NCBI GenBank assembly: GCA_021325215.1 | Contig: JAJPHO010000189.1 | Coordinates: forward strand, 1-64,000 | Source of the DNA: Alphaproteobacteria bacterium | GTDB lineage: Bacteria > Pseudomonadota > Alphaproteobacteria > Rhodospirillales > Magnetospirillaceae | DNA length: 64,000 bases | Reading direction: 5' to 3' | Shown: piece by piece, positions 11,621 through 43,775 of the stretch | Position numbering within the stretch: position 1 is the first letter of the stretch | How the letters are laid out: each line of letters opens with the position of its first letter | The notes under the pieces: generated by a model | Told to the model about the DNA's origin: nothing | Database searches by the model: none | Seen by the model: only the letters and a program-made list of their open reading frames with translations | Made by a program: the position numbers and the translations under genes

Positions 11621-11698
11621 ATGGCCTGGAAAAAGCCGAAGATCGCCGTCGTGTGCGTCGGTATGGAAATCAATTCCTACGCGTCCGCGCGCCGCTGA
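11621..11698 (+). CDS. pqqA: PQQ precursor peptide PqqA
   Basis: 25-residue peptide starting MAWKKPKI and containing the diagnostic E-x3-Y motif as E16-I-N-S-Y20. In PQQ biosynthesis the Glu and Tyr side chains are cross-linked by the radical SAM enzyme PqqE while PqqD presents the peptide. The freed dipeptide-like core becomes the whole cofactor. AAAAAAGGAGGATTTC places a strong Shine-Dalgarno site 7-10 nt ahead of the ATG, as expected for a highly expressed precursor. It is followed 39 nt later by pqqB. The length is within the family's usual 22-29 residues. Confidence 0.96.
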   Translation: MAWKKPKIAVVCVGMEINSYASARR

Positions 11699-11737
11699 CA
11701 TCGAAACCGACCGCCGCGATTTCCAGGGTTATAGGCG

Positions 11738-12652
11738 ATGATGCGCATATTGGTCCTCGGAGCCGCGGCGGGAGGCGGCGTTCCCCAGTGGAACTGCAAT
11801 TGCGGCATCTGCCGCAGCGCCCGGCAGGGCGGTAACGGCATCGGGCGCTCCGCTCAGGCCTCGGTGGCGGTCAGCGCCGATGGCGATCATTGGTTCCTGA
11901 TCAATGCCTCGCCGGACCTCCGCCAGCAGATCACGGACAATCCCCAGCTCCACCCCCGTCATGGCCTGCGCCACAGCCCCATTTCCGGCGTGCTGCTGAC
12001 CAATGGCGACGTCGACGCCATCGCTGGCCTGCTGACCATGCGCGAAGGCTCGCCCTTCACGCTCTATGCCCATGACAATGTGCTGAGCATCCTGCGCGCC
12101 AATTCGATCTTCAATGTGCTGTCGCCGGTCCATGTGAAGCGCCAGCCGATCCGGCTGGAGGAGCCTTTCGCGCTGACTCTGCCGGATGGCCGTCCATCCG
12201 GCCTGAAGGTCACGGCCTTCGCGGTGCCGGGCAAGGTGCCGCTCTATCTCGAAGGCGGCGCGCCCGATCCGGATGCGGTCGATACCATCGGCCTGCTGAT
12301 CGAGAATGGTGACAGCCGTTTCTACTATGTCGCCGCCTGTGCCGAAGTGACGCCGGATCTGGCCGAACGATTGGCCGGGGCGCCGATGGTTTTCTTCGAC
12401 GGCACGCTGTGGCAGGACGACGAGATGATCAAAGGCGGCCTGAGTGCCAAGACCGGGCGGCGCATGGCGCATCTCGCGATGTCCGGCGCCCAGGGATCGA
12501 TCGAATCCTTCAAGTCGATCGCGGTCGACCGGAAAATCTACCTGCACATCAACAATTCCAATCCCGCCTGGCATCCGGACTCGCCCGAGCGTCACCATCT
12601 GACGCAAGCGGGCTGGGAGATCCTGCCGGACGGCACGGAGATTTCGCTATGA
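11738..12652 (+). CDS. pqqB: PQQ biosynthesis protein PqqB
   Basis: 304-residue MBL-fold protein with the PqqB opening MRILVLGAAAGGGVPQWNCNCGIC, in which C20, C22 and C25 form the structural metal site. PqqB is a non-haem iron hydroxylase acting on the tyrosine ring of the PqqA-derived intermediate. The late motif HINNSNPAWHPDSPERHHL is also characteristic. Two ATG codons are adjacent (11738, 11741) and either may be used. The stop overlaps the pqqC start by four bases (ATGA), indicating translational coupling. Confidence 0.96.
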   Translation: MMRILVLGAAAGGGVPQWNCNCGICRSARQGGNGIGRSAQASVAVSADGDHWFLINASPDLRQQITDNPQLHPRHGLRHSPISGVLLTNGDVDAIAGLLTMREGSPFTLYAHDNVLSILRANSIFNVLSPVHVKRQPIRLEEPFALTLPDGRPSGLKVTAFAVPGKVPLYLEGGAPDPDAVDTIGLLIENGDSRFYYVAACAEVTPDLAERLAGAPMVFFDGTLWQDDEMIKGGLSAKTGRRMAHLAMSGAQGSIESFKSIAVDRKIYLHINNSNPAWHPDSPERHHLTQAGWEILPDGTEISL

Positions 12653-13386
12653 ACGTGATCCTGCCGCAGCCCCTCGATTCCGCCGACGCCATGGAGGCGC
12701 GGCTGCGCGAGATCGGCGCCACCCGGTATCACAGCCTGCATCCCTTCCATCATCTGCTGCATTCAGGTCAGTTGACCAAAGGGCAGGTGCAGGCCTGGGC
12801 GCTGAACCGCTATTACTACCAATCCTCGATCCCGCTGAAGGATGCGGCGGTCATCTCGCGCTTTCGCGACAAGGCGGTCCGGCTGGAATGGCGCCATCGC
12901 CTCGACGATCATGATGGCGGCGAGGGTGCGGAAGGCGGCATCGACCGCTGGCTGAAGCTGACCGATGGGTTGGGACTCGATCGCGATTATGTCGAATCGA
13001 CCGAAGGAATCCTGCCCGCCACCCGCTTTGCCGTGGACGCCTATGTGACCTTCGTGCGCGAGAAGACGCCGCTGGAAGCGGTCGCCTCGTCGCTGACCGA
13101 ACTGTTCGCGCCGCAGATCCATGAAGAGCGGATTTCGGGGATGCTGGCGAATTACGATTTCATCGATGACGGCATCATGGCCTATTTCAAACGCCGCCTG
13201 ACCCAGGCGCCGCGCGATGCCGACTTCGCGCTGCATTACGTGCGCGAGAATGCCCGCACGCCGGAACAACGCCAGGCCGTGTGTGACGCTTTGATATTTA
13301 AAACCAATGTCTTGTGGGTTCAGCTTGATGCTTTGCATCATGCCTATGTGAACGGCTTCATTCCGCCGGGAGCCTTCAGGCCATGA
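12649..13386 (+). CDS. pqqC: PQQ synthase PqqC
   Basis: 245-residue all-helical oxidase that catalyses the final ring closure and eight-electron oxidation to PQQ using O2 and no metal. Conserved segments are visible: YHSLHPFHHLLHSGQL, WALNRYYYQSSIPLKDAAVISR, and EWRHRLDDHDG near the active site. The ATG at 12649 overlaps the pqqB stop by four bases and the TGA at 13384-13386 overlaps the start of pqqD, so the operon is tightly coupled. An upstream in-frame extension to 12409 runs through pqqB in another frame and is rejected. Confidence 0.96.
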   Translation: MNVILPQPLDSADAMEARLREIGATRYHSLHPFHHLLHSGQLTKGQVQAWALNRYYYQSSIPLKDAAVISRFRDKAVRLEWRHRLDDHDGGEGAEGGIDRWLKLTDGLGLDRDYVESTEGILPATRFAVDAYVTFVREKTPLEAVASSLTELFAPQIHEERISGMLANYDFIDDGIMAYFKRRLTQAPRDADFALHYVRENARTPEQRQAVCDALIFKTNVLWVQLDALHHAYVNGFIPPGAFRP

Positions 13387-13658
13387 CGAGTTTGTCGGAA
13401 ACCAGCTGTCCGGCCCTGGCGCCGCATGTCGTGCTGAAGCGCGACGAGGCGCGGTCGCGCTGGGTCATTCTGGCGCCGGAACGAGTCCTGGTGCCGGACG
13501 AGACCGCGGCCGAGGTGGTCCGCATGACCGACGGCAAGGCGACCATCGCCGAGATCGTCGACCGGCTGGCCGAGAAATATGCGGCGCCGCGCGACGAGAT
13601 CGCCGGCGACGTGATCGAGATGCTGCAGGATCTGGCCGATCAGGGATATCTGAAATGA
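13383..13658 (+). CDS. pqqD: PQQ peptide chaperone PqqD
   Basis: 91-residue protein with the PqqD fold (RiPP recognition element): HVVLKRDEARSRWVILAPERVLVPDETAAEVVRM followed by ATIAEIVDRLAEKYAAPRDEI and the terminal helix DVIEMLQDLADQGYL. It binds the PqqA peptide and delivers it to PqqE. It overlaps both pqqC and pqqE by four bases. Confidence 0.95.
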   Translation: MTSLSETSCPALAPHVVLKRDEARSRWVILAPERVLVPDETAAEVVRMTDGKATIAEIVDRLAEKYAAPRDEIAGDVIEMLQDLADQGYLK

Positions 13659-14758
13659 ACCACGTCCAGGCCGCAATAGAGATCCCTCTCGCGGCGATGG
13701 GCGAGATGACTCACCGCTGTCCGCTGCAATGTCCCTACTGCTCGAACCCGGTGGAATTGGCCAAGGCTTCGGATGAATTGGCGACGTTCGAGTGGAAGAG
13801 GGTGCTGGACGAGCTGGCATCCCTCGGCGTGCTGCAATTTCACTTCTCCGGCGGCGAGCCGCTGGTCCGCAAGGACATCGTCGATCTGGTGGCGCACGCG
13901 GCCAAGGCCGGCCTCTACACCAATTTGATCACTTCGGCGGTTTTGCTCGACGACGCGAAGATGACGGCGCTGGCCGAAGCCGGGCTCAATCATGTTCAGA
14001 TCAGCATCCAGGGCGCCGAGGCTGAAACCGCCGATCGCATCGCCGGTTTCCCGGGGCATGAAAAGAAACTGGCCGCCGCGAGACTGGTGCGCGCCGCCGG
14101 CATTCCGCTGACCGTCAATGCGGTCATGCATCGCCAAAATCTCGGCCAGCTCAGCGACATCGTGGCGTTGTCGCTGGACATGGGCGCCGCGCGGCTGGAG
14201 GTCGCCCATGTCCAATATTACGGCTGGGCGCTGAAGAACCGCGCCGCCCTGATACCGACGCCCGAACAGCTCGACGAGGCGACCGGCATCGTCGATGAGG
14301 CACGCATCCGGCTGAAGGGGCGGCTGGTGATCGACTATGTGATTCCGGACTATTACGCCGAAACGCCGAAGAAATGCATGGGCGGCTGGGCCCAGAGCTT
14401 CCTGATCCTGTCGCCCTCCGGCAAGGTGCTGCCCTGTCATGCGGCGGAGAGCCTGACAGGCCTTTCGTTCGACTCGGTGCGGGATGGATCGATCGAGGAG
14501 ATCTGGCGCGATTCGCCGGCCCTCAATCTCTATCGCGGCACCGGCTGGATGGCCGAGCCGTGCCGCAGCTGTGAATTCCGCGAGATCGATCTGGGCGGTT
14601 GCCGCTGCCAGGCTTTCGCCCTGGCCGGCGACGCCTCGGCGACCGATCCCGCCTGCGGCAGGTCACCTTTGCACCGCGGGATTTTCTCGCTCGCGGTGGC
14701 GGAGGCGAGCGAAGACCGGCGAACGCTCGTCTATCGGAGGTACGCCGGACAGTCCTGA
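13655..14758 (+). CDS. pqqE: PqqA peptide cyclase, radical SAM enzyme PqqE
   Basis: 367-residue radical SAM/SPASM protein that joins Glu16 and Tyr20 of PqqA. The AdoMet iron-sulfur cluster motif is C22-PLQ-C26-PY-C29. FSGGEPLVRKDI is the conserved AdoMet-binding strand. The C-terminal SPASM region provides auxiliary cluster ligands in CMGGWAQ, LPCHAAES and EPCRSCEFREIDLGGCRCQ. The start at 13655 overlaps pqqD by four bases. It ends 13 nt before the Met-rich gene at 14772, which has its own Shine-Dalgarno sequence (GACAGGGAGGATG). Confidence 0.97.
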   Translation: MNHVQAAIEIPLAAMGEMTHRCPLQCPYCSNPVELAKASDELATFEWKRVLDELASLGVLQFHFSGGEPLVRKDIVDLVAHAAKAGLYTNLITSAVLLDDAKMTALAEAGLNHVQISIQGAEAETADRIAGFPGHEKKLAAARLVRAAGIPLTVNAVMHRQNLGQLSDIVALSLDMGAARLEVAHVQYYGWALKNRAALIPTPEQLDEATGIVDEARIRLKGRLVIDYVIPDYYAETPKKCMGGWAQSFLILSPSGKVLPCHAAESLTGLSFDSVRDGSIEEIWRDSPALNLYRGTGWMAEPCRSCEFREIDLGGCRCQAFALAGDASATDPACGRSPLHRGIFSLAVAEASEDRRTLVYRRYAGQS

Positions 14759-14771
14759 CAGGGAGGATGAC

Positions 14772-15080
14772 ATGTCCATTGCCAAGAAAGTAACCGTAGC
14801 CGCCGTGGTGGCCGCGGCGGTGGCGGGTATGGCGGTAATCGCCGACGACATGAAGAACGGCAGCATGACCATGGTCGAACCGTCCGGCAAAGTGACAGAG
14901 CTGAAGAACGCCGCGACCGTCGACAAGGCCATGATGGACGACATGATGAAGCATGCCGAGGAAATGAAGGACGGGATGGTCATCATGGTGTGGGGCCAGC
15001 GGCTCTACATCGTCAAGAACGAGAAGATGGCCGACGGCAAGATGACGTTCGATTACTGGGGCCTGCATGGCGTGAAGTGA
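14772..15080 (+). CDS. Methionine-rich small exported protein in the pqq operon
   Basis: 102-residue protein of unrecognised family. An N-terminal hydrophobic segment (VTVAAVVAAAVAGMAVIA) suggests export or membrane anchoring. The rest is acidic and unusually rich in Met (14 of 102), with the cluster KAMMDDMMKHAEEMKDGM in the centre. Such Met/Asp/His clusters can bind copper or other metals, but that is inference. The C-terminal part predicts beta strands (GMVIMVWGQRLYIVKNEKM). It sits 13 nt after pqqE and 2 nt before the zinc metallohydrolase, with GGGAGGATG ahead of the ATG, so it is clearly an operon member. Its function is not known. Confidence 0.8.
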   Translation: MSIAKKVTVAAVVAAAVAGMAVIADDMKNGSMTMVEPSGKVTELKNAATVDKAMMDDMMKHAEEMKDGMVIMVWGQRLYIVKNEKMADGKMTFDYWGLHGVK

Positions 15081-15082
15081 GG

Positions 15083-16003
15083 ATGGAGCTGTCCCGCCGG
15101 CGGCTGCTCGCGGCCGCCGGCAGCTGCCTGGCCTTGCCCGTTCTGCCGGCGTTGGCGCAGGACCCGGTGAGCGAAGTCGCGCCAGGCCTGTTCGTGCGGC
15201 ACGGTATCGACCAGGATGCCAACAAGGCCAACCGCGACGCCATCGCCAACCTGGCTTTCGTGATCGGCAGGCAGGCGGTGGCGGTGATCGATCCCGGCGG
15301 CAGCCGCGCCGACGGCGAGGCCTTGCGCAGCGCCATCGCCGCCAGAACGAACCTGCCGGTGCGCTGGGTGGTCATGACCCATGGCCATCCCGACCATGTG
15401 TTCGGGGCGGAAGCCTTCCTGCCCGAGAAACCTACTTTCGTCGGACATGCGCGATTGCCCGAGGTTTTAGCTTCGCGCGGGGAGTATTATCGGCAGGGCC
15501 TGGGGCGCATCCTCGGCACCGATGCGGGCACTGTCGAACCGCCCGGCAAATTGGTCGACGGCAAGGCAGAGATCGATCTCGGCGGCCGGGTACTGGAACT
15601 GACCGCCCATCCGCCGGCCCATACGATGGCGGATCTGACGGTGATCGATGTCGGCGCGCAGATCCTGATTGCCGGCGATCTGCTGTTCGTCGGCCGCGTG
15701 CCGTCGCTGGATGGCAGCCTCAAGGGCTGGATCGCGGTGCTCGACGATCTGGCCAGGCTGCCGCTGGAGCATGCGGTGCCGGGCCATGGTCCGCCGCTGG
15801 TGGCGTGGCCGGAGGCGGCCAAGCCGCTGCAGCATTACCTTACGGCGCTGCGCGACGAGGTGAAGCAGGCCATCGCCAAGAATGTGCCGCTGGAAAAAGC
15901 GGTGACGAGCATCGGCCGCGGGGAGCGCGGCAAATGGAAATTGTTCGACGATTATCAGGGCCGCAATGTTACCGAGGCCTATCGCGAACTGGAATGGGAT
16001 TAG
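15083..16003 (+). CDS. Quinoprotein relay system zinc metallohydrolase (SoxH-like)
   Basis: 306-residue MBL-fold protein with a Tat-like signal (MELSRRRLLAAAGSCLALPVLPALA). The metal-binding motif H100-G-H102-P-D104-H105 is intact, with further ligands likely at TAHPPAHTMAD, LIAGDLLFVG and VPGHGPPLV. It matches the SoxH-related hydrolases found beside PQQ dehydrogenases and named quinoprotein relay zinc metallohydrolases. Their reaction is not established. The gene begins 2 nt after the Met-rich protein and is followed by the SoxYZ-like carrier, suggesting the hydrolase acts on a substrate bound to that carrier in the periplasm. Confidence 0.88.
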   Translation: MELSRRRLLAAAGSCLALPVLPALAQDPVSEVAPGLFVRHGIDQDANKANRDAIANLAFVIGRQAVAVIDPGGSRADGEALRSAIAARTNLPVRWVVMTHGHPDHVFGAEAFLPEKPTFVGHARLPEVLASRGEYYRQGLGRILGTDAGTVEPPGKLVDGKAEIDLGGRVLELTAHPPAHTMADLTVIDVGAQILIAGDLLFVGRVPSLDGSLKGWIAVLDDLARLPLEHAVPGHGPPLVAWPEAAKPLQHYLTALRDEVKQAIAKNVPLEKAVTSIGRGERGKWKLFDDYQGRNVTEAYRELEWD

Positions 16004-16012
16004 GAGGTTTTC

Positions 16013-16822
16013 ATGAAGGCCGCCGTTCTGCTTTCCGTCATCCTGCTGTCGGCTTCGGCCGCCCGGGCGGTCGAGCTGCCCGACGATCAGGCCGATCGTA
16101 TGAAGCGCTGGAAAGACCTTTCACAGCAGGTATTCGGCGACAAGAAACTGGAGAACGGCGCTAAATTCATCGCCATCGACGCGCCGGACCGCGCCATGGA
16201 CGCCGCGCTGGTGCCGGTCGGGGTCAAGATTTCCGGCAAGACCGGGGTCAAGGCCCTCTATCTGCTGGTGGACGACAATCCGGTGCCGCTGGCGGCGCAT
16301 TTCACCTTCGGGCCTGCCGCCGATCCCAAGGAAATGAAGATCCGCATCCGGCTGGAGCAATACACCTACATCCATGCGGTGGTCGAAGGCGGCGACGGCA
16401 AGCTTTACCAGGCGGCGCGTTTCGTGAAAGCGGCGGGCGGATGCTCGGCGCCGGCCGGTCCCCAGGATGAGGCGCTGAAGGGGCTTGGCCAGATGAAGCT
16501 GCAGACCATGGCGACCTATATTCCGGGCAAGACCATGGAAGTGCAGCTGCATATCCGCCACCCGAACTTCAACGGCATGCAGATGGATCAGGTGACCCGC
16601 TATTACACGCCGGCCCGCTTCATCAATGAGGCCGAGGTGTCCTATGACGGCCAGCAGGTGTTCCATTTCGAGGGCGGCATCTCGATGAGCAGCGATCCCG
16701 CCATCACCTTCGGCTTCAAGCCCAAGGAGAAGGGCGAACTGACCGTCGTGGCGCAGGACAGCAAGGAGACGGTGTTCGAGCACGTCTTCCCGATCCCTCA
16801 GACCGAAGCGGTCACTCAATGA
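16013..16822 (+). CDS. Quinoprotein dehydrogenase-associated SoxYZ-like carrier
   Basis: 269-residue exported protein (signal MKAAVLLSVILLSASAARA). The N-terminal half resembles SoxY and ends at a Gly-Gly-Cys segment with C144 (AAGGCSAPAG), corresponding to the swinging-arm cysteine of SoxY. The C-terminal half resembles SoxZ (LGQMKLQTMATYIPGKTMEVQLHIRHPNF). In sulfur oxidation SoxYZ carries covalently bound sulfur intermediates. The fused form in PQQ clusters has no proven cargo. It overlaps the next gene by four bases, and AGGAGG precedes its ATG. Confidence 0.88.
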   Translation: MKAAVLLSVILLSASAARAVELPDDQADRMKRWKDLSQQVFGDKKLENGAKFIAIDAPDRAMDAALVPVGVKISGKTGVKALYLLVDDNPVPLAAHFTFGPAADPKEMKIRIRLEQYTYIHAVVEGGDGKLYQAARFVKAAGGCSAPAGPQDEALKGLGQMKLQTMATYIPGKTMEVQLHIRHPNFNGMQMDQVTRYYTPARFINEAEVSYDGQQVFHFEGGISMSSDPAITFGFKPKEKGELTVVAQDSKETVFEHVFPIPQTEAVTQ

Positions 16823-17337
16823 AGGCTGTGCTGGTTGCCGCCGTGCTGGCGGCAAGCGTGCCCGAACCCTCCGGCTATTGGACCGGCCCCAATCAGGGCG
16901 ACACCCCCGATACCGTTGCCGGCGCGACGGTGATTCACACGGCGCTGCTGGCGAAGCTGATCAGACGGGAAAGGCCGGTGCTGATCGACGTCTCGCCCGC
17001 GCCGCCGCCGCCGCCCGAGCTTCCCGCCGGCACGGTATGGATGGCGCCGCCGCACCGCGACATCCCCGGCAGCGTCTGGCTGCAGGAAGCCGGCAAGGGC
17101 GATCTGCCGCCCGAGGCTGAAGATTTCTACCGCGCCACGCTGGAGCGGCTCACCCACGGCAGCAAGGCGCACGCAGTGGTGCTCTACTGCCATCCCAAAT
17201 GCTGGCTCAGCTGGAACGCCGCCAAACGCGCCGTGTCCTTCGGTTACCAGCAGGTCTATTGGTATCCCGACGGGATCGAAGGCTGGCAGGGAGCGGGGAA
17301 GCCGGTGGCGGCGGCCGAGGCGCTGCAGCCTGGCTGA
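16819..17337 (+). CDS. PQQ-catabolism-associated CxxxCW rhodanese-like protein
   Basis: 172-residue protein with a short signal-like N-terminus (MKAVLVAAVLAASVPEPSGYW) and a rhodanese-related fold: VLIDVSPAPPPPPELPAGTVWM in place of the usual pre-loop strand, and an active-site segment C124-HPK-C128-W-LSWNAAKRA, then VYWYPDGIEGWQGAG. The paired cysteines plus Trp define the PQQ-associated CXXCW-motif family. A persulfide or disulfide-exchange role together with the SoxYZ-like carrier is plausible but unproven. It overlaps the SoxYZ gene by four bases and is the last gene of the pqq operon before the VapBC insertion. Confidence 0.85.
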   Translation: MKAVLVAAVLAASVPEPSGYWTGPNQGDTPDTVAGATVIHTALLAKLIRRERPVLIDVSPAPPPPPELPAGTVWMAPPHRDIPGSVWLQEAGKGDLPPEAEDFYRATLERLTHGSKAHAVVLYCHPKCWLSWNAAKRAVSFGYQQVYWYPDGIEGWQGAGKPVAAAEALQPG

Positions 17338-31603: not shown

Positions 31604-31963
31604 CTATTCGCAGCGCAGATTGGCCTCGGCCTGGGCGGTACGCAATTTCGCCAGATTGTCCTTGGCGATCGGCGTGTCGCGCACCAGTCCGCCTCGCTGG
31701 CCCAGGGCGCCGCCCTGCTGCAGGCTCAGCACCGTCGAGGCTTTCTCATACTCGTCATAGGGCATGTAATTGGCGATGGTGTCGATCTCGCACGAGCATT
31801 TGTCGAGAAAGAGCCGGCTGAAGCCGTTCGACCCCAGGCAGCCGATCACGTAATCGGCCCGCGCCGCCGTTGGATAGTCGTATTTCGGATGTGCCGGCAC
31901 CGCAGCGATTGCGGGCAGGGCGAGCGCCAGGCTGACCAGGGCCAGCAAGGAACGGACAGTCAT
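31604..31963 (-). CDS. Small secreted Cys-containing protein of the quinoprotein island
   Basis: 119 residues with a clear signal peptide (MTVRSLLALVSLALALPAIAA). The mature part contains YVIGCLGSNGFSRLFLDKCSCEIDTIANYMPYDEYEKASTVLSLQ, with three closely placed cysteines, and a final Cys in NLRCE. Similar small proteins occur near quinoprotein dehydrogenase genes, but no function is known to me. The ATG at 31963 has GGGAGGACTGG upstream and is preferred to 32065. It is first in the operon Cys-protein, FIST, PAS kinase, ABC transporter, and divergent from the 68-residue ORF at 32064. Confidence 0.8.
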   Translation of the reverse strand: MTVRSLLALVSLALALPAIAAVPAHPKYDYPTAARADYVIGCLGSNGFSRLFLDKCSCEIDTIANYMPYDEYEKASTVLSLQQGGALGQRGGLVRDTPIAKDNLAKLRTAQAEANLRCE

Positions 31964-32063
31964 TCCAGTCCTCCCGATATGCTTATTTTTGCAACTAACT
32001 TGCCACAAACAGGTTGCCTGGGCGCATAGTATTTTGGTCGATATCCGGCCCGAGGTGATGACC

Positions 32064-32270
32064 ATGATCCAGCTCGTGCTCGTCTATTGCATGATCCAGA
32101 ACGCATCGGTCTGCGTGGAAGACCGGCCGACCTATCTCGAACCCATGTCGATGAGCTCGTGCATGAGTTCGGCTCAGTTCGTCGCCGTGGATTACGTCCG
32201 CGACCACCCTCGCTGGCAGCTTTCGAAATGGAGCTGCGAGGTCGACGTTCCGCGCAAGATTCCGGCCTGA
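32064..32270 (+). CDS. Small Cys-rich conserved-looking protein
   Basis: 68 residues starting MIQLVLVYCMIQNASVCVEDRP, with cysteines at 9, 17, 33 and 57 (SSCMSSAQ; KWSCEVD). No signal peptide is obvious. The spacing and aromatic content suggest a compact disulfide or metal-binding fold. An SD-like GAGG (32052-32055) is 8 nt ahead of this ATG. An alternative in-frame ATG is at 32058. It lies alone upstream of the alcohol dehydrogenase gene, within the island and divergent from another Cys-containing small protein. Function unknown. Confidence 0.65.
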   Translation: MIQLVLVYCMIQNASVCVEDRPTYLEPMSMSSCMSSAQFVAVDYVRDHPRWQLSKWSCEVDVPRKIPA

Positions 32271-32337: not shown

Positions 32338-32495
32338 TCCGACCCATGCCGTGAAAAACGGTTCGGCCGCTGCATGTCGCGCCGGGCAATCCGCCTGACG
32401 CCGAAGCACGGGCGGAATCGCAGATTCTCCGCACTTGCAAGCCGCCTCGGGCGGATATGGGCGACCGGGATTTCGCGACCAAGGGAGGAAAGCCT

Positions 32496-34288
32496 ATGTT
32501 AACGAGACAAACGACGACGAAGCGCACACTTCTTGTTGTTCTCGGTGCGCTGGCGTTGGCGGGAGGTTCGGCGAATGCGAACGAAGAGCTGCAAAAGCTC
32601 ACGCAGGACCCCAACCAGTGGGTGATGCCGACAGGCGACTATTCCAATCACCGCCACAGCACGCTCTCTCAGATCACTGCGACCAACGTCAAGGATTTAC
32701 GTCCGGTCTGGACTTTCTCGACCGGCGTGCTGCGCGGCCATGAAGGCGCCCCGCTGGTAGTCGGCGACACCATGTATGTCCATACGCCGTTCCCCAATAC
32801 GGTGTTCGCCCTCGACCTCAACAACAACGGCAAGATCATCTGGAAGTACCAGCCCACCCAGGACCCCAACGTGATCCCGGTGATGTGCTGCGATACCGTC
32901 AATCGCGGCGTGGCGTACGGTGACGGCAAGATCATCCTCGACCAGGCCGATGCGACCGTTGTCGCGTTGGACGCCAAGACCGGCCAGGTGGTGTGGACCG
33001 TCAAGAATGGCGACCCCGGCAAGGGCGAGACCATGACCTCGGCCCCGATGGTTGTTAAGGACAAAGTGCTGGTGGGCATTTCGGGCGGCGAATTCGGCGT
33101 CCAGGGACGTATCACCGCTTATAGTCTCAAAGACGGCAAACTGCTGTGGAAAGCCTATTCCGAAGGGCCGGACGACCAGATCCTGTTCGACCCGGAAAAG
33201 ACCACGGTGCTCGGCAAGCCGGTCGGCAAGAATTCCTCGCTGGCCACCTGGCAGGGCGATCAGTGGAAGATCGGCGGCGGCGCCACCTGGGGCTGGTATT
33301 CGTACGATCCCAAGCTGAACCTGGTCTATTACGGCACCGGCAATCCCAGCACCTGGAACCCGCATCAGCGGCCGGCGACAATAAATGGTCGATGACCATC
33401 ATGGCCCGCAACCCTGATACCGGCGTGGCCAAGTGGGTCTATCAGATGACGCCCTACGACGAGTGGGACTATGACGGCGTCAACGAGATGATCCTGGCCG
33501 ACATCGATGTCGGCGGCAAACCGACCAAGGCCCTGGTCCATTTCGACCGCAACGGCTTCGCCTATACCCTCGACCGCGAGACCGGCGCCCTGCTGGTGGC
33601 CGAGAAGTATGATCCGGCGGTGAACTGGGCCAACAAGGTCGACGTCAAGACCGGCCTGCCGGACCGCGTCGCCGCGATGAGCACCGAGAAAGAGGACCAT
33701 AACGTCAAGGGAATCTGTCCCGCGGCGCTGGGGTCCAAGGACGAGCAGCCGGCCTCCTTCGATCCGAAGACCGGTCTGTTCTACGTGCCGACCAACCATG
33801 TCTGCATGGATTACGACCCCTTCGCGGTCTCCTACACGGCGGGCCAGCCCTATGTCGGCTCGACCCTGTCGATGTATCCCGGCCCCGGCGGAAATCTGGG
33901 CAACTTCATCGCCTATGACGCCGGCAAGGGCAAGATCGTATGGACCGACAAGGAACCCTTCTCCGTCTGGTCGGGCGCTCTGACCACCGACGGCGGCGTC
34001 GCCTTCTACGGCACGCTGGAAGGGTATCTCAAGGCGGTCGACGTCAAGACGGGCAAGGAGCTGTACAGCTTCAAGACTCCGTCCGGGATCATCGGCAACG
34101 TGATGACCTACAGCCATGGCGGCAAGCAGTATGTCGCCGTGCTGTCGGGTGTCGGCGGCTGGGCCGGTATCGGCATGGCGGCCGGCCTCACCAAGAGCAC
34201 CGACGGCCTGGGCGCCGTGGGTGCGTACGAGCAGCTGTCCAACTATACGCAGTTGGGCGGCGTCATGACTGTGTTCGCTCTTCCCTAA
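32496..34288 (+). pseudogene. Lanthanide-type PQQ alcohol/methanol dehydrogenase, frameshifted
   Basis: Periplasmic eight-bladed propeller dehydrogenase of the methanol/ethanol family, oxidising primary alcohols with PQQ. The signal peptide starts at 32496 (AAGGGAGGAA upstream). The vicinal Cys pair C131-C132 ([10 protein letters not shown]) forms the disulfide ring over PQQ. The active-site motif [10 protein letters not shown] has its catalytic Asp at 33467-33469 and a second Asp two residues later at 33473-33475, the signature of lanthanide-dependent XoxF/PedH-type enzymes (calcium enzymes lack it). The frame breaks at about 33374: the N-part ends at 33395 and the C-part continues one base shifted. 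Adding one G to the GG at 33374-33375 restores ...[14 protein letters not shown]. Both parts are otherwise intact, so this is either a recent mutation or a sequencing error. Confidence 0.93.
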
Positions 34289-34364: not shown

Positions 34365-34796
34365 ATGGTTCTGAGATTTTCCGCCCGATCGGGGGTTGCC
34401 GCGATCGGCTTTTTCGTCCTCTGTACTTCGATCGCCGTTCCCGCCCGGGCCGACAATCCGCCCTACAACATCAAGGACGGCAAGGTCGACATCCATGTCT
34501 ATAACGGCTATCGCCGCTACGGCGATTCCTGCATGCGCTGCCACGGCCCGGATGGCGCCGGCAGCTCCTATGCGCCGGATCTGACCAATTCGCTGAAGCA
34601 TCTGTCCGAGGACCAGGTCAAGGAGACCATCATCAATGGCCGTCAGAATCTCGCCAACGGCCAGGACAAGGTCATGCCGTCCTTCGGCACCGTGGCCGAT
34701 GTGGTCAATTATCTCGACGACATCTACGCCTACCTCAAGGCCCGCTCGGACGGTAAACTGCCGCGCGGACGCCCCGAGCGCTATGATGATAATTAA
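34365..34796 (+). CDS. pedF: Cytochrome c-550 PedF-like
   Basis: 143-residue periplasmic c-type cytochrome: signal peptide (VAAIGFFVLCTSIAVPARA), haem-binding C56-MR-C59-H60, and a likely distal Met in KVMPSFGTVADVVNYL. It is the usual electron acceptor gene next to PQQ ethanol dehydrogenases and matches the PedF pattern (NGYRRYGDSCMRCHGPDGAGSSYAPDL). Electrons from PQQH2 would pass through it toward the terminal oxidase. The next gene starts inside its last codons (14-nt overlap), so the two are coupled. Confidence 0.92.
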   Translation: MVLRFSARSGVAAIGFFVLCTSIAVPARADNPPYNIKDGKVDIHVYNGYRRYGDSCMRCHGPDGAGSSYAPDLTNSLKHLSEDQVKETIINGRQNLANGQDKVMPSFGTVADVVNYLDDIYAYLKARSDGKLPRGRPERYDDN

Positions 34797-35586
34797 AGGC
34801 CTGGTGGCTGCGTCGATGCTTCTGGCATCCGCCGCGTCCTGGGCGCAGCAACGCAGCGAACTGCGCGTCTGCGCCGATCCCTCCAACCTGCCTTATTCCG
34901 CCCAGGACATGAGCGGCTTCGAGAACAAGATCGCCGCCTTGTTCGCCGACGATATGCATCTGAAAGTGTCCTACACCTGGTTTCCCCAGGTCACCGGCTT
35001 CGTCCGCAACACGATCGCGGCGCAGAAATGCGATCTGGTGATGGGGACGGTGTCGGGCGAGGACATGATGGCCAACACCACGGCCTATTATCACACCGCC
35101 TACATGATCGTGACCCGCACGGCGGACAACATCACCGCCACCTCGATCGGCGATCCGGTCTTCAAGAACAAGAAGATCGGCCTGATCGCCCGCACGCCGC
35201 CGGTCGACGCGGTGGTGAAGTTCGACCTTACCAGGCAGGTTGTTCCCTATGATCTGATGACCGACACCCGAATCGTCCAAGCGCCGCGCGAGATGCTCAA
35301 GGACCTGGCCAAAGGCGAGATCGACGTCGCCTTGGTGTGGGGGCCGCAGGCGGGCTATTTCATCAAGCACGACAATCTGCCGCTGACCGCCGCTTTCCTG
35401 AAGCAGGAAGAGGGAAGCGCCCGCCTCGACTACCACATCGCCATGGGCGTCCGCGCCAACGACACCGACTGGCGCCGCCAGATCAGCGACGAGATCGTCA
35501 GGAACAAGGCCAAGATCCAGGACATATTGCTGGATTACGGGGTGCCGCTGCTGGACGAGCAGGGGCAGCCGATCAAGGGGAAATAG
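34783..35586 (+). CDS. Quinoprotein dehydrogenase-associated binding protein (XoxJ-like)
   Basis: 267 residues with a signal peptide (IKGLVAASMLLASAASWAQ) and a periplasmic-binding type 2 fold: LRVCADPSNLPYSAQDMSGFENKIAALFADDM, typical of the amino-acid-binding-like proteins encoded beside quinoprotein dehydrogenases. XoxJ, the homologue in methylotrophs, is needed for dehydrogenase activity and is thought to help activate the apoenzyme rather than transport a solute. The start overlaps pedF by 14 nt. ATG codons at 34783 and 34786 are both possible. No transporter is adjacent. Confidence 0.9.
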   Translation: MMIIKGLVAASMLLASAASWAQQRSELRVCADPSNLPYSAQDMSGFENKIAALFADDMHLKVSYTWFPQVTGFVRNTIAAQKCDLVMGTVSGEDMMANTTAYYHTAYMIVTRTADNITATSIGDPVFKNKKIGLIARTPPVDAVVKFDLTRQVVPYDLMTDTRIVQAPREMLKDLAKGEIDVALVWGPQAGYFIKHDNLPLTAAFLKQEEGSARLDYHIAMGVRANDTDWRRQISDEIVRNKAKIQDILLDYGVPLLDEQGQPIKGK

Positions 35587-37563: not shown

Positions 37564-38133
37564 CTATTCCTGCAACGCTTTTGCGAAATCTCCCAGACGC
37601 GCTTCCAGATCGACCGGAATCTGGCAGGCATAGCGCAGCGTCTTGTCGAGGCTGTCATAGTCGCGCTGCAGGAAGCCGCGGCGCTGCAGGATTTCGTCAT
37701 GCTTGGCGCCCGCAGACTCCGGCGTCGCGCTCAGCTCGTCATTCACTTTCTGGATGGTGCCGTTCAGATTGGCCTGGCGCTGGGCCATGCCACGGATCTT
37801 GGTGATCACCTCGGCGCGTTGGCGGTCGGTTTCCTCGACCAGGCCGGTGAACAACATCGGCAGCGCCTTTTTTCCGTGCGGGGCCTTGCGGAAGGCGGCG
37901 AGCTGGCGCACATCGTCGTCGCGGTCGGTGTCGCGCGGAGCGAGCTTGCCGACCAGGGCAGCGATCTTCTTGTCCTTGTGCCAGTCGGGCAGGTTCTCGA
38001 GCTGGGACGTGTCTTCCCAATAGGTGGCGGGCGCCAGACTGTCGGAGAAATGCTGCTGGCAGGGCAGGGCCGCTTCATCGGCCAGGGCAGGGGCGCCGAG
38101 GGTCAGGGCCAGAATCACGGATGCGAGTTTCAT
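37564..38133 (-). CDS. Exported protein of unknown function in the PQQ-linked ABC operon
   Basis: 189 residues with a signal peptide (MKLASVILALTLGAPALA). The mature part is predominantly charged and helical, with two Cys (LPCQQHF, RYACQIP) near its ends that could form a disulfide, and coiled-coil-like stretches (RQANLNGTIQKVNDELSATPESAGAKHDEILQRRGFLQRDYDSLDKTLR). I do not recognise the family. It overlaps the end of the permease gene by four bases (ATGA) and is the last member of the 37564-42409 operon, so it may serve the transporter from the periplasm. Confidence 0.75.
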   Translation of the reverse strand: MKLASVILALTLGAPALADEAALPCQQHFSDSLAPATYWEDTSQLENLPDWHKDKKIAALVGKLAPRDTDRDDDVRQLAAFRKAPHGKKALPMLFTGLVEETDRQRAEVITKIRGMAQRQANLNGTIQKVNDELSATPESAGAKHDEILQRRGFLQRDYDSLDKTLRYACQIPVDLEARLGDFAKALQE

Positions 38134-38936
38134 TCACCGCCTCCCTTGCGCGCCAGCATGCCGCGGCCCGGGTCGTAGCCCAGGATCGCCAGCGCCAGGA
38201 ACAGGATCGTGCTGCCGGCCACGACGGCCAGCGATACGCAATCGAGCTTGAGATAGAGCGCGAAGCGGATCAGCTCGACCGCATGGGTAAAGGGATTGGC
38301 CTGGCAGACATACCAGAGCGCCAATCCCCCTTCCTTAACCCGCCATAGCGGATAAAGCGCCGAAGAGGCGAAGAACATCGGAAAGATCACGAAGTTCATC
38401 ACCCCGGCGAAATTCTCCAGCTGGCGGATCAGCGACGACAAAGCCAGCCCCAGCGCGCCCAGCATCAATCCGGACAGCAGCAGCGCCGGCAGCACCGCCA
38501 GATAGCCCCAATAGGGCGGCTCGACATCCCAGAACCAGGCGACGGCCAGGAAGGCATAGGCCAGCGGAACCGAGATCAGCGCGCCGGCCAGCAGCTTGCT
38601 GGTCAGCAGGAACCAGCGCGGCAGCGGGCTGATCAGCAGGGTCCGCATATTGCCCATCTCGCGGTCATAGACCATCGACAAGGAGCTCTGCATGCCGTTG
38701 AACAGCTGGATCATCGCCAGCAATCCCGGCGCGATATAGACCTGATAGGGGATGTAGGTCTCGTAGGGCGGAATGATCGAGACGCCCAGCACGAAGCGGA
38801 AGCCCGAGGCGAACAGGATCAGCCAGACCAGCGGCCGCACCAGGGCCGAGACGAAGCGGCTGCGTTGGTTGAGAAAGCGCAGGAATTCGCGCGCCAGGAT
38901 GCCGAGACAGCAGCGAAAATAGGCGGCGGGGTTCAT
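38130..38936 (-). CDS. ABC-2 type permease, PQQ-alcohol-dehydrogenase-linked (PedC-like)
   Basis: 268-residue inner-membrane permease with about six TM segments. It follows the ABC-2 exporter pattern: FLNQRSRFVSALVRPLVWLILFASGFRFVL, MQSSLSMVYDREMGNMRTLLISPLPRWFLLTSKLLAGALISVPLAYAF, and a late IFPMFFASSALYPL. It is the type found with PQQ alcohol dehydrogenase systems (PedC). The transported molecule is not known. An inserted 143-bp foldback sequence separates it from its ATPase gene. Confidence 0.88.
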   Translation of the reverse strand: MNPAAYFRCCLGILAREFLRFLNQRSRFVSALVRPLVWLILFASGFRFVLGVSIIPPYETYIPYQVYIAPGLLAMIQLFNGMQSSLSMVYDREMGNMRTLLISPLPRWFLLTSKLLAGALISVPLAYAFLAVAWFWDVEPPYWGYLAVLPALLLSGLMLGALGLALSSLIRQLENFAGVMNFVIFPMFFASSALYPLWRVKEGGLALWYVCQANPFTHAVELIRFALYLKLDCVSLAVVAGSTILFLALAILGYDPGRGMLARKGGGE

Positions 38937-38971
38937 GGGGGGGGCCTCTTCGCGGTTGAGAGGCTTGTTGT

Positions 38972-39114
38972 TTCACCACGAAGACACGAAGACACGAAGG
39001 AGGAGAAGCGCCGCAGGCAATCTCTGCCTTGTCCAGCGAATGCCTGCGGATGAGGAATGATTGCCTGCGGCGCTTTTCTTGTTTTCCTTCGTGCCTTCGT
39101 GTCTTCGTGGTGAA
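38972..39114. repeat. Foldback (long inverted repeat) inside the ABC transporter operon
   Basis: The left arm 38972-39021 and right arm 39060-39114 are imperfect inverted repeats of about 50 bases, built on CACGAAGACACGAAG-type repeats and GCGCCGCAGGCAAT, separated by about 38 bases that contain another TGCCTGCGG. It could fold into a long stem. CACGAAGACACGAAG-type arrays are known as dispersed intergenic repeats in several phyla. It interrupts the otherwise tightly packed ATPase-permease pair. Confidence 0.8.
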
Positions 39115-39156
39115 TCGTCTGGAGGCCGAGGACGAACGAGGCGTGGATGTAATCGC

Positions 39157-39888
39157 TCATGGCGCTTCCCCGGTCAGGCTCTGGAAGGCCGATTTCAGTG
39201 AGTCCGCCCCGGCTGCCGCGACCACGTCAGGCACCGAGCCATGGGCTCGCACCTTGCCTTTGTGCAGCACCACGACGCGAGATTTGTCGTCGGCTTCGTC
39301 GATCAGATGGGTCGCCCACAAAACCGCCAGGGCGCGGTCCGCGCACAGCGCCCGCACATGATCGAGCAGGAAGCCTCGGCTGGCGATGTCGAGGCCGACA
39401 GTGGGCTCGTCGAGCAGCAAAAGGTGCGGTTCATGCAGCAGAGCGCGGGCGAGTTCGACGCGGCGGCGCAGGCCGCCCGACAGCAGCCGCACCTTGTCGT
39501 GGCGGCGATCAGCCAGCTGCAATCGTTCCAGTTCGGCCTCGATCCGCTGTTTGGCCAATCCGCGCGCCATGCCGTGCAGGGCGCAATGATAGGACAGGTT
39601 CTGCTCGACCGAGAGATCGAGGTCCAGGGTCGGCTGCTGGAACACCACGCCCATGCGCCGCAACGCCTGCGAGGCGTGATGGCGAATGTCGTGGCCGAAC
39701 ACCGAAATGCTGCCGCTGCGATTGTGATAGAGATGGGTGGCCAGCGCGAACAGGGTGCTCTTGCCGGCGCCGTTCAGGCCCAGCAGCACGGTGAAGTCCC
39801 CCGGCTTAACGCTGAAGTCGACCTGATCGAGGGCTTTGCGTTCGCCGAAGGAATGGCTGAGGTCGGTGATCTGAAGAGCGGGTGTCAT
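39157..39888 (-). CDS. ABC transporter ATP-binding protein, PQQ-alcohol-dehydrogenase system
   Basis: 243 residues with Walker A GLNGAGKSTLFAL, Q-loop VVFQQPTLDLDLSVEQNL, signature LLSGGLRRRVELARALLH, Walker B LLLLDEPTVGLD and switch His in WATHLIDEAD. It is the ABC-2 partner ATPase of the PedC-like permease. The gene ends 220 bases before the permease start because of the foldback insertion. It starts 1 nt after the beta-propeller gene's stop. Confidence 0.92.
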   Translation of the reverse strand: MTPALQITDLSHSFGERKALDQVDFSVKPGDFTVLLGLNGAGKSTLFALATHLYHNRSGSISVFGHDIRHHASQALRRMGVVFQQPTLDLDLSVEQNLSYHCALHGMARGLAKQRIEAELERLQLADRRHDKVRLLSGGLRRRVELARALLHEPHLLLLDEPTVGLDIASRGFLLDHVRALCADRALAVLWATHLIDEADDKSRVVVLHKGKVRAHGSVPDVVAAAGADSLKSAFQSLTGEAP

Positions 39889-39889
39889 C

Positions 39890-40852
39890 TTACGGGGCGA
39901 CCGCCACTCCCCACGGCGCGCGTCCGACCGGCACCGACTTGATGACCTTCAGCGCCTTCACGTCGATCATCGACACGTCGTTGGAAACCCCATTGGCGGT
40001 GTAGAGCTTGCTTTCGTCGCCATTGAAGGCGAGGTGCCAGACGCGCTGTCCGACCAGCAGATATTTCTTCACCTCATAGGTCTTCTGATCGACCACCGCG
40101 ACGCGGTTTGCCGGACCCAGCGCGATGAATGCCAGCGAGCCGTCCTTCGACAGCGCCATGCCGACCGCCTGCACCTGGCCGGCGGGAATGCCGGGGATGG
40201 GGAATTTGATGGTCTGCAGCACTTTGTGCGTGGCGGCGTCGATGATCGCCACCGAGCCGCCGACCTCGGACGAGACCCATACCTTCGAGCCATCCGCCGT
40301 CCATTCGGCGAAGCGCGGGCGGCTGCCGACCAGCACGCTGCCCGCCACCTGGTGCGAGGCGATGTCGATGAAATGGGCCATGCTGGTGGTTTCCGAGGTG
40401 TTGACCAGAACCTTGCCGTCCGGGCTGACCGCCATGCCCTCCGGTTCGACCCCGACCGGGATTTCGCCGGTCACGCCGCCGCCGGCAACGTCGACGATCG
40501 AGACCATATTGTCGTTCTCATTGGCGACATAGAGGGTCTTGCCGGCCGGATCGATGTCGAACAGCTCGGGGTCGGGATTGCTGGCCAGGGTGCGGACGAT
40601 CTTCAGGCTCTGGGTGTCCAGCACCTCGATATGGTTCGAGTCGCTGGCGCAGATGAACAGCGACTTCTTGTCCGGCGACAATACGATGCCGCGCGGACGG
40701 GTGCCGGTCTTGATCGTGGCGATCGGCGCCAGACTGTCGGCGTCGAGCACGGTGACGCTGTTGTCCTTTTCGTTCGAGACGAACAGTTTTTCGGCGGCGG
40801 CGGGCGCCGCCAGCGCGAGCAGGCACAGGCCCAACATCATTTTGCGTGACAT
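39890..40852 (-). CDS. PQQ-dependent catabolism-associated beta-propeller protein
   Basis: 320 residues with a signal peptide (MMLGLCLLALAAPAAA) and seven YVTN-type repeats of about 42 residues, each with a core like KLFVSNEKDNSVTVLDADSLAPIATIKTGTRPRGIVLSP. This is the beta-propeller family found with PQQ alcohol dehydrogenase clusters. It has no PQQ-binding Trp-docking motifs, so it is not itself a dehydrogenase. A scaffold or ligand-binding role in the periplasm is likely. It overlaps the upstream binding-protein gene by 16 nt and precedes the ATPase by 1 nt. Confidence 0.92.
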   Translation of the reverse strand: MSRKMMLGLCLLALAAPAAAEKLFVSNEKDNSVTVLDADSLAPIATIKTGTRPRGIVLSPDKKSLFICASDSNHIEVLDTQSLKIVRTLASNPDPELFDIDPAGKTLYVANENDNMVSIVDVAGGGVTGEIPVGVEPEGMAVSPDGKVLVNTSETTSMAHFIDIASHQVAGSVLVGSRPRFAEWTADGSKVWVSSEVGGSVAIIDAATHKVLQTIKFPIPGIPAGQVQAVGMALSKDGSLAFIALGPANRVAVVDQKTYEVKKYLLVGQRVWHLAFNGDESKLYTANGVSNDVSMIDVKALKVIKSVPVGRAPWGVAVAP

Positions 40853-42027
40853 GACGTCTCCGGCTGGTCGATTCCCAGCGTGTCCAGTTCCGAGGTCTCA
40901 TGCAGGAAGCCGGGCTGCGGCGACACCGAGACCAGCGCCCGCGCATCGGACAACAGCACCGGCTGGCGCAGCTGCCCGTCCCAGGCGCGGAAGCTCAATT
41001 GTGTGCCCTTGAAACCGGCCACGGCGAAATCCGGCCCGCGTAAATATGCGGCGATCTTGGCCGGATCGCTCGTCTGGGCGCGCACGGCGGCTTCGCCATA
41101 GGAGCGCACCGCCAGCCAGGCGCCGTAATCGCGCTCGCTCATCCAGCGATGGGCCAGTTTGAGGAAGCGGTTCTGCAATTGCGTGCCGCCCCATTCCTCG
41201 AATGGACGGGCCCAGGCGGTGGGAACCACGCCCTGGGTGCCAGCGACCGGGCGCGGCAAGGTGGTGCGGAAGGCGAGGTCGTCGCCGAAATCATTGTTCT
41301 CGTCGGCCACCACCAGCACGTCATACTCGATGCCCTGGGTGAAGCGGGCGGATTCGTCGGCGATGCCGAAATGGCCGGTATCGGTCTGCCGGGCGCCGGG
41401 ATCGTAGGTCCAGGGCTTGTCGGCGGCGAGCTTGATCTGGAACTTCCTGGCGGAACGGCGGATGGCGTCGGCATAGGCCTTGTCGCCTGGCGTCGGGCCG
41501 GCCGCCAACAGAATCCTGGTCCAGCGCTTGACCGAGAGGAACTGCATCAGCGCGTCGGCCAGCATGGCGTCGCTGGGCAGGGTATGCAGCAGATTGGCGC
41601 GGCAATCCGCGGCGCGCAGGGAATCGTCGTGGCTGGTGGCGTCGATGATGATGGCGCCCTGGGCCTTGCCCAGATCGGCGATCGCATCCAGCGCGGCGGC
41701 CGGCAAATCGGCGACGAACAGGCGCTGGCCCTGGGCGAGCAGATCCTTGACCGCGGCGACCGCATGGTCGGCGTCGGGGGCGATGGTCTCGGAAAGCTGG
41801 AAGGTCTGGCCGACGAAACGGCCGGTGGTGTTGTCGTCCTCGATGGCGAGGCGGGCGCCCTGCATCCCGTCGTCGATGGCCGGCTGGTCGAGCCAGGCTT
41901 GCGGCAACGAGCGGGAAGAAGCGGCGCCGACATAGGCGATCTTGACGATCGATGACGGCGCCGCCGAGGCGGACGCGGCCACCGTGACGCCGAGCAGCAG
42001 AAACAGGCTCAGCGTACGGATGACCAT
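40837..42027 (-). CDS. ABC-type substrate-binding protein, PQQ-alcohol-dehydrogenase system
   Basis: 396 residues with a signal peptide (LSLFLLLGVTVAASASA) and a type-1 periplasmic-binding fold related to the branched-chain amino acid receptors (VKIAYVGAASSRSLPQAW; GARLAIEDDNTTGRFVGQTFQL). It corresponds to the binding protein regularly encoded with the PedC-type ABC exporter and beta-propeller in PQQ clusters. Two Cys (DCRAN and the C-terminal TSCHAK) may form a disulfide. It lies 10 nt downstream of the cytochrome gene, suggesting one operon from 42409 to 37564. Confidence 0.88.
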   Translation of the reverse strand: MVIRTLSLFLLLGVTVAASASAAPSSIVKIAYVGAASSRSLPQAWLDQPAIDDGMQGARLAIEDDNTTGRFVGQTFQLSETIAPDADHAVAAVKDLLAQGQRLFVADLPAAALDAIADLGKAQGAIIIDATSHDDSLRAADCRANLLHTLPSDAMLADALMQFLSVKRWTRILLAAGPTPGDKAYADAIRRSARKFQIKLAADKPWTYDPGARQTDTGHFGIADESARFTQGIEYDVLVVADENNDFGDDLAFRTTLPRPVAGTQGVVPTAWARPFEEWGGTQLQNRFLKLAHRWMSERDYGAWLAVRSYGEAAVRAQTSDPAKIAAYLRGPDFAVAGFKGTQLSFRAWDGQLRQPVLLSDARALVSVSPQPGFLHETSELDTLGIDQPETSCHAK

Positions 42028-43184: not shown

Positions 43185-43760
43185 ATGAGCGCTGTTTCGA
43201 TCCACCCCGCCGTCGATCACGGTTTCCCGCCGACGGCGGCCGGATTTTCCGGCGGCACGCTGACCTGCAAATGCGCCAGCAAGCCGGTCAAGGTGGCCAT
43301 CAAGGCCCAGACCGCGCACAACCATGTCTGCGGCTGCACCAAATGCTGGAAACCCAAGGGCGCCTTGTTCGCGCAGATCGCGGTGGTGCCCAAGGAAGCC
43401 GTCAGCGTCATCGAAAACGGCGACAAGCTGCACGTGATCGATTCGTCCGCCACCATCCAGCGCCATGCCTGCAAGGAATGCGGCGTGCATATGTATGGGC
43501 GCATCGAGAACACCAAGCATGCCTTCTATGGCCTCGACTTCGTCCATACCGAGCTGTCCGCGGAAAAGGGCTGGGCCGCGCCGGGCTTCGCCGCCTTCGT
43601 CTCGTCGATCATCGAATCGGGCGCCGATCCCAAGAACATGGATGCGGTGCGGGCCCGTCTGCGCGAGCTGAAGCTGGAACCCTATGACTGCCTGTCGCCG
43701 CCTCTGATGGATGCCCTGGCGACACAAACCGCCAAATTGAATGGCGTTCTCGCGGCCTGA
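43185..43760 (+). CDS. gfa: S-(hydroxymethyl)glutathione synthase (glutathione-dependent formaldehyde-activating enzyme)
   Basis: 191 residues with the GFA zinc-binding cysteine pattern: [26 protein letters not shown] and [17 protein letters not shown]. It speeds condensation of formaldehyde with glutathione to S-hydroxymethylglutathione, the substrate of the next gene's product. It is 15 nt upstream of frmA with GGGAAGACAG between, and CTGGGAGAACGCC precedes its own ATG. Together gfa-frmA-frmB form a complete detoxification/dissimilation pathway for formaldehyde produced by methanol oxidation. Confidence 0.95.
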
Positions 43761-43775
43761 TCACGGGGAAGACAG

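Follow-up and report, generated by a model that had tools for sequence, protein, structure and literature searches.

Beside lanthanide-dependent pyrroloquinoline quinone (PQQ) dehydrogenases, Pseudomonas putida (PP_2666, PP_2677 and PP_2678) and Methylobacterium extorquens (META1p1703-1705) encode the same set of three protein types, namely a metallo-hydrolase, a fused SoxYZ-like carrier and an exported rhodanese-fold protein with a CxxxCW motif (PMC12997753). These families bear names in NCBIfam and have been grouped in a 2026 review, which in its section 15 links them with lanthanide PQQ dehydrogenases that have a vicinal cysteine pair, and offers either formation of a disulfide or shielding of PQQ from sulfur as their role (PMC12997753). 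The locus described here is a further example of this set. It lies on contig JAJPHO010000189.1 of an alphaproteobacterial assembly (GCA_021325215.1; Magnetospirillaceae), in a stretch of 64,000 nucleotides that was analyzed as a whole and is called the window below. It differs from the sets of P. putida and M. extorquens in having all three genes in tandem behind pqqE; its hydrolase is of type 2 (TIGR04559). A first-pass annotation of the window had proposed that the three proteins form a sulfur or thiol relay for PQQ enzymes, which might make the disulfide of the vicinal cysteines or detoxify a side product; both of these functions are already in print in the above section of the review.

The other relevant relatives are the SoxYZ proteins of thiosulfate oxidation, which work with SoxXA and SoxB and share with the window protein the SoxY and SoxZ domains and a Gly-Gly-Cys arm. 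In contrast to these, the window protein has both domains fused in a single chain and carries the arm within the linker (GGCSAP) rather than at a C-terminal GGCGG end, and falls below the cut-offs for true SoxY (77.4 of 125 bits) and true SoxZ (58.9 of 76 bits). Likewise, the region of the rhodanese loop is common to the CxxxCW protein and the rhodanese/DsbD fusion selenoprotein TsoB (NF045694, 35 bits), but the former lacks the DsbD part, shows no selenocysteine and scores far below the NF045694 cut-off. The earlier statement that these families have no known reaction still holds: in a full-text search of a partial library, no experimental study of the function of the module was recognized by title, abstract or passage, and the terms searched for do not occur in a transposon screen of M. 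extorquens (PMC7391723). Much of the methanol oxidation in the environment is carried by lanthanide enzymes, while the "quinoprotein relay" proteins remain names without a reaction. Our comparison of genomes suggests that the carrier and the hydrolase very probably constitute a two-protein periplasmic kit for lanthanide PQQ dehydrogenases of the XoxF/PedH type. The split between lanthanide signature and cysteine pair, that between core and accessory parts, and a four-cysteine neighbor of the kit are apparently new, as none of these was found in literature searches of the same partial library.

The three module proteins and their linkage

The hydrolase (15083..16003, + strand) has a signal of the twin-arginine translocation (Tat) type followed by a di-metal metallo-beta-lactamase fold, and matches the family "quinoprotein relay system zinc metallohydrolase 2" (TIGR04559) with 362.5 bits, against a curated cut-off of 280. 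Its complete set of di-metal ligands, H100, H102, D104, H105, H180, D199 and H235, is invariant in all 81 rows of an alignment of the matches listed, and it is predicted to bind zinc and to be an active hydrolase. In structure comparison the best match of its model is an unnamed structure from Burkholderia (Z 32.6), followed by chlorothalonil dehalogenase (Z 31.2), with lactamases and alkylsulfatases more distant; since many kinds of bond are hydrolyzed by this fold, the substrate is not readable from it. The Tat-like signal peptide carries a conserved cysteine cluster, GGLCLCCLP, in L060, L064, L076 and other Methylobacterium loci, and C15 of the window protein is kept in 69 of the 81 rows. 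In two relatives from small genomes (L046 and L047, of G127 and G260) the hydrolase by eye seems to lack the aspartate of GDLVF, reading SENIF instead; here hydrolase and SoxYZ are on separate contigs and the latter is divergent from xoxF.

The carrier (16013..16822, + strand) is a single open frame with no internal stop, encoding a signal peptide and the SoxY and SoxZ Pfam domains, and reaches 253.7 bits with TIGR04557 (curated cut-off 140). The arm within its SoxY-SoxZ linker reads KAAGGC(144)SAP, the codon of Cys144 being, by arithmetic, 16442-16444. This arm is intact, as the first-pass annotation had it, and its GGC motif with Cys144 is conserved in all 75 covering rows among the matches listed, with one further row gapped at this point. 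The rhodanese-fold protein (16819..17337, + strand), also exported, contains the Pfam Rhodanese domain and matches TIGR03865 (PQQ-dependent catabolism CXXCW protein) with 188.6 bits, against a curated cut-off of 128. Its active-site loop holds C124-x3-C128-W, in which the first cysteine aligns with the loop cysteine of YgaP and both were rightly picked out earlier, each being conserved in 66 of 67 rows among the matches listed. The coordinates, order and family names first given for the three genes are all correct.

To see how far the genes travel together, we inspected the named loci, i.e. the best 80 matches to the hydrolase query, a collection that is enriched for Methylobacterium and uninformative about hydrolases lacking these neighbors elsewhere. 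Among the 76 usable loci, which have at least 1.5 kb downstream of the hydrolase, the hydrolase is adjoined by SoxYZ in 72; the rhodanese is present in 60, and 59 have both. This linkage exceeds chance. The pairing of the first two also holds across genomes: type-2 hydrolases above the cut-off occur in 13 genomes of the sample described below, and all 13 have the fused SoxYZ, while a second SoxYZ subtype pairs with the type-1 hydrolase (TIGR04558) in all eight loci tested. The rhodanese was detected at E 1e-15 in 7 of the 18 genomes with SoxYZ and not in the other 11. Since so few of the carrier genomes have it, the rhodanese is best regarded as an accessory of a core formed by carrier and hydrolase. 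In Methylobacterium loci a thioredoxin-fold gene is found downstream. A pentapeptide-repeat protein, PedD-like by type, lies between or beside hydrolase and SoxYZ in L137 (10004-10843) and L289 (6960-7739). The first-pass annotation had also listed in the transcription unit a methionine-rich secreted protein encoded between pqqE and the hydrolase (14772..15080, + strand). This orphan matches no NCBIfam or Pfam family, is confined to the window's own genome among the 120 searched from its order, and is absent from the same position in the other pqq-linked loci examined; it was therefore rejected as a component. Of the genes first listed, carrier and hydrolase stand as the core, whereas the rhodanese is not obligatory and the methionine-rich protein not conserved.

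Distribution in relation to lanthanide-type dehydrogenases

To investigate which dehydrogenases the module accompanies, we used an even draw of 240 genomes from the same class as the window. Of these, 52 contain PQQ alcohol dehydrogenases (E up to 1e-130), and two sites were read from the alignment of these enzymes: the vicinal cysteine pair, and an extra aspartate two residues past the catalytic one (Asp-x-Asp), which we take to be a lanthanide ligand and hence the lanthanide signature. The fused SoxYZ scores above the TIGR04557 cut-off in 20 genomes, two of which (G314 and G205) were excluded, as their match is divided between two genes by a stop, leaving 18. At least one dehydrogenase with the vicinal pair is present in all 52 genomes, while one with Asp-x-Asp is present in 32. 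Of these 32, 13 have the fused SoxYZ, as against none of the 20 genomes whose PQQ alcohol dehydrogenases all lack the signature (Fisher p 0.0007), with the qualification that at most five candidates were scored per genome, such that one counted as lacking Asp-x-Asp could hold an unscored example. G346, a contig-edge fragment with 123.9 bits and a hydrolase of 209 bits, was scored as lacking the fusion; with it the figure becomes 14/32. The same comparison made by family code gives 12/25 versus 0/12 (p 0.003). Five SoxYZ genomes fall outside the 13: that with the broken xoxF (G000), one with the dehydrogenase cut by a contig end (G298), one with a partial dehydrogenase match of 174 bits (G308), and two in which none was found (G248 and G273), these being 97% and 79% complete. 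Given this distribution, and although the cysteine pair is in all 52 genomes, the module appears to be tied to lanthanide-type enzymes and not to the cysteine pair as such. The association with quinoproteins claimed earlier is thereby supported and sharpened to those with the lanthanide signature. The distribution also separates the two published ideas, as the lanthanide signature predicts the kit and the vicinal pair does not.

A FastTree phylogeny of the dehydrogenases and the genomic distances are in line with this picture. The clade of the window XoxF comprises 12 rows, 10 of them from SoxYZ genomes, the exceptions being G249 and G146. In a clade which we presume to be PedH/ExaA-like, SoxYZ is present in three of five genomes. 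A third clade of 32 long enzymes, which we take to be quinohaemoproteins, contains a single row from a SoxYZ genome, and this genome also owns a PedH-like enzyme. SoxYZ has an Asp-x-Asp dehydrogenase within 4.1 kb in 12 of the 18 genomes that carry it; in the window the distance is 15.8 kb. Eight of these 18 are small assemblies of 0.8-1.8 Mb, and the presence of the kit in such genomes suggests that it is worth keeping.

Possible chemistry of the carrier arm

The mechanism that we tentatively favor, as a possible one, is that Cys144 clears reactive sulfur species or other nucleophiles from lanthanide-bound PQQ, and that the hydrolase then frees the arm. Lanthanide-bound PQQ would be a strong electrophile prone to the addition of nucleophiles, and we infer that the harder the Lewis acid the more electrophilic the PQQ, which may be why it is the lanthanide enzymes that need the kit. 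At its C5, PQQ is known to form adducts with nucleophiles such as amines (PMC13088180). The thiol on the Gly-Gly-Cys arm could take up, or pull off, sulfite, thiosulfate, persulfide or another nucleophile, and the loaded group would be cleaved from it by the metallo-hydrolase, in the place that SoxB has for true SoxYZ. Transfer of sulfane sulfur or resetting of thiols might fall to optional partners, namely the CxxxCW rhodanese and, in Methylobacterium, the thioredoxin-like protein. In favor of such clearing of sulfur or other nucleophiles, it leaves the established SoxYZ chemistry unchanged and lets the hydrolase stand in for SoxB. The reported inhibition of Hyphomicrobium by thiosulfate with auxiliary donors, seen during growth on methanol but not on formate, fits as well (PMC12997753).

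Several observations weigh against this mechanism. Of the 32 Asp-x-Asp genomes, 19 have no fusion above the cut-off, including G249 and G146 with their XoxF-clade enzymes. In the window genome the module SoxYZ is the single match to TIGR04557, with no separate SoxY or SoxZ gene by that model, and no YeeE-type sulfur transporter (PF04143) was found. This transporter family is present in 7 of 21 genomes and never near the module, and hence sulfur traffic through the module is unsupported by context; a link to YeeE/PmpAB, suggested by Hyphomicrobium, was rejected for the same lack of any PF04143 match near the module in the 21 genomes. When hydrolase and carrier were modelled together by AlphaFold2, with the intervening stop read through, each part was well folded (mean predicted local distance difference test score 89) and the predicted template modelling score was 0.69, but the low confidence of the arm leaves no basis for a docking of Cys144. 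Lastly, according to the review, effects were minimal when P. putida was screened by random barcode transposon sequencing in the absence of rare earths (PMC12997753).

Of the other explanations, the formation or restoration of the vicinal Cys-Cys disulfide beside PQQ, in which carrier and CxxxCW rhodanese would act as a thiol-disulfide relay, was put forward both in section 15 of the review (PMC12997753) and in the first-pass annotation. The paired cysteines of the rhodanese loop, the thioredoxin-fold gene of the Methylobacterium loci and the four-cysteine protein described below are consistent with it, but the distribution of the cysteine pair and the optional rhodanese weaken it: 39 of the 52 genomes with the pair have no fused SoxYZ above the cut-off, including all 20 without Asp-x-Asp, most carrier genomes yielded no rhodanese at the above threshold, and the zinc hydrolase would have no evident part. 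We hence consider this rather unlikely. Somewhat less probable still is a relay of aldehyde, in which the aldehyde would be held on Cys144 as a hemithioacetal, oxidized to a thioester and released by the hydrolase, in a protein-bound counterpart of the glutathione pathway for formaldehyde. A carrier thiol together with a hydrolase fold common to hydroxyacylglutathione hydrolase (weak TIGR03413 match, 28 bits) would suit such a scheme, and purified XoxF1 does oxidize formaldehyde; however, the same source has XoxF1 of M. extorquens yielding formaldehyde rather than formate in vivo, with Fae being required (PMC6414531). Moreover, among the 16 SoxYZ genomes covered for these enzymes (all but G243 and G308), Fae is present in 10 and FrmA in four more, such that 14 of 16 have a cytosolic route, and Sagittula and Ruegeria carry frmA and a formyl-glutathione hydrolase gene beside xoxF. 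A formaldehyde relay as the main flux was rejected on these grounds.

It is similarly improbable that the kit serves maturation, loading or checking PQQ or the lanthanide in XoxF/PedH with the cysteine chemistry being incidental: the adjacency of pqq genes in 8 of the 80 loci listed and the nearness of Asp-x-Asp dehydrogenases to SoxYZ would agree with it, but the invariant arm cysteine and the complete ligand set of the hydrolase favor chemistry over chaperoning. That the module is a remnant of the Sox pathway of sulfur oxidation, or one of its ordinary branches, as its homology to SoxY, SoxZ and SoxH might suggest, is highly improbable, given the unmet cut-offs for true SoxY and SoxZ and the lone TIGR04557 match of the window genome. 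A more far-reaching form of the clearing mechanism, to which we likewise assign a low probability, is repair of the cofactor: adducts of nucleophiles such as sulfite, formed on lanthanide-bound PQQ inside XoxF/PedH, would be passed to Cys144 and hydrolyzed off by the metallo-hydrolase, restoring the enzyme, while the four-cysteine protein and the rhodanese would reset thiols. To our knowledge no dedicated repair of a quinone cofactor has been described earlier, and this would, if true, be the first. The question of function, including the clearing of sulfur that we favor, is addressable in a tractable organism, since Sinorhizobium meliloti has the kit beside xoxF on pSymB and strain 2011 is reported to grow on methanol via XoxF (PMC12628762). 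S. meliloti with lanthanum would supply the condition missing from the existing P. putida screen.

Gene order and the surrounding island

The nine genes pqqA, pqqB, pqqC, pqqD, pqqE, that for the methionine-rich protein and those for hydrolase, SoxYZ and rhodanese run head to tail on the + strand (11621-17337). The pqqA precursor peptide of 25 amino acids (11621..11698) was recognized by its ME-x3-Y core, as an E-x3-Y peptide read in frame, and is followed by pqqB (11738..12652; TIGR02108, 393 bits), pqqC (12649..13386; TIGR02111, 365.1 bits), pqqD (13383..13658; TIGR03859, 73.1 bits) and pqqE (13655..14758; TIGR02109, 539.8 bits). The gene for the methionine-rich protein begins 13 nucleotides after pqqE, with 2 nucleotides between it and the hydrolase, 9 between hydrolase and SoxYZ, and a 4-nucleotide overlap of SoxYZ and rhodanese. 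A simple scan found no terminator-like site on the + strand between pqqC and 17968, where a toxin-antitoxin-like pair lies downstream, and promoter-like sites across the region are not in excess over shuffled sequence. Short spacing and these two scans make the single transcription unit claimed earlier likely, if not demonstrated. Directly 3' of the rhodanese is the said pair, a ribbon-helix-helix antitoxin-like gene and a PIN-domain gene (17399-18036).

Placement in a pqq operon, which the first-pass annotation had reported, is true of the window but not a general rule. Among the matches listed, 8 of the 80 loci have pqq genes upstream in the same orientation (7 of the 76 usable ones and L053), L128 showing pqqE alone. 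These belong to Afipia, two metagenome-assembled genomes (MAGs) of Hyphomicrobiales, one Rhodospirillales MAG and four Nitrospirillum/Azospirillum records; the order pqqE-hydrolase-SoxYZ is also seen in Roseomonas marmotae. The pqq-linked order is thus recurrent, yet a minority form.

In gene content, the surroundings of the module are a lanthanide/PQQ alcohol-oxidation island. A XoxF-type PQQ alcohol dehydrogenase (32457..34288, + strand) is present in two halves of 371 and 366 bits with TIGR03075, bearing the vicinal pair in VMCCDT and Asp-x-Asp in EWDYDG, and with its C-terminal half within the XoxF clade. It is not one intact frame, with shifts near 33365-33395, although both halves are otherwise well conserved; the break could be an assembly error or a real, recent loss. 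None of the other dehydrogenases of this genome reaches the TIGR03075 cut-off, leaving the broken xoxF as the only XoxF-type gene found. It is followed on the same strand by genes for a XoxG-like c-type cytochrome (34365..34796; TIGR03874, 134 bits, below the cut-off of 161.75) and a XoxJ-like binding protein (34780..35586; TIGR03871, 293.4 bits, cut-off 212). Farther along are a PQQ-associated ATP-binding cassette (ABC) system resembling pedA1-pedA2-pedB-pedC (38130..42027, - strand; TIGR03863, TIGR03866, TIGR03864 and TIGR03861, all above cut-off), and gfa and frmA of the cytosolic glutathione formaldehyde route (43185..44879, + strand; TIGR02820, 331 bits, and TIGR02818, 623 bits, both above cut-off). 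The latter two are close to xoxF, and the genome has a second copy of frmA at another site (C74). The island also includes FIST and hybrid histidine-kinase genes.

An unnamed secreted protein with four cysteines, in the neighborhood of SoxYZ and xoxF, is a candidate for a further, so far unrecognized component of the kit. Its frame spans 31604..32065 on the - strand, with a likely start near 31963, and the cysteines follow the pattern GC-x13-CxC-x59-C. Its annotation is hypothetical protein only; Pfam gave no match, and none from NCBIfam or the PDB was credible. The AlphaFold2 model has four helices with a well-predicted core, for which Foldseek returned nothing at E 0.001, the best VIA Z-score, 4.8, being uninformative. 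Relatives (L086 9300-9656, L099 12675-13064, L288 9716-10414, L293 9846-10412 and others) adjoin SoxYZ and/or xoxF in 9 of the 80 loci listed, as well as in G177, G193, G236 and G298, and likewise on plasmids from Sagittula, Ruegeria, Azospirillum, Rhizobium, Sinorhizobium and Roseomonas. A conserved neighbor of the ped ABC genes (37564-38133, - strand) similarly has no Pfam or NCBIfam match, and on several plasmids its relatives are neighbors of the hydrolase or of ped genes.

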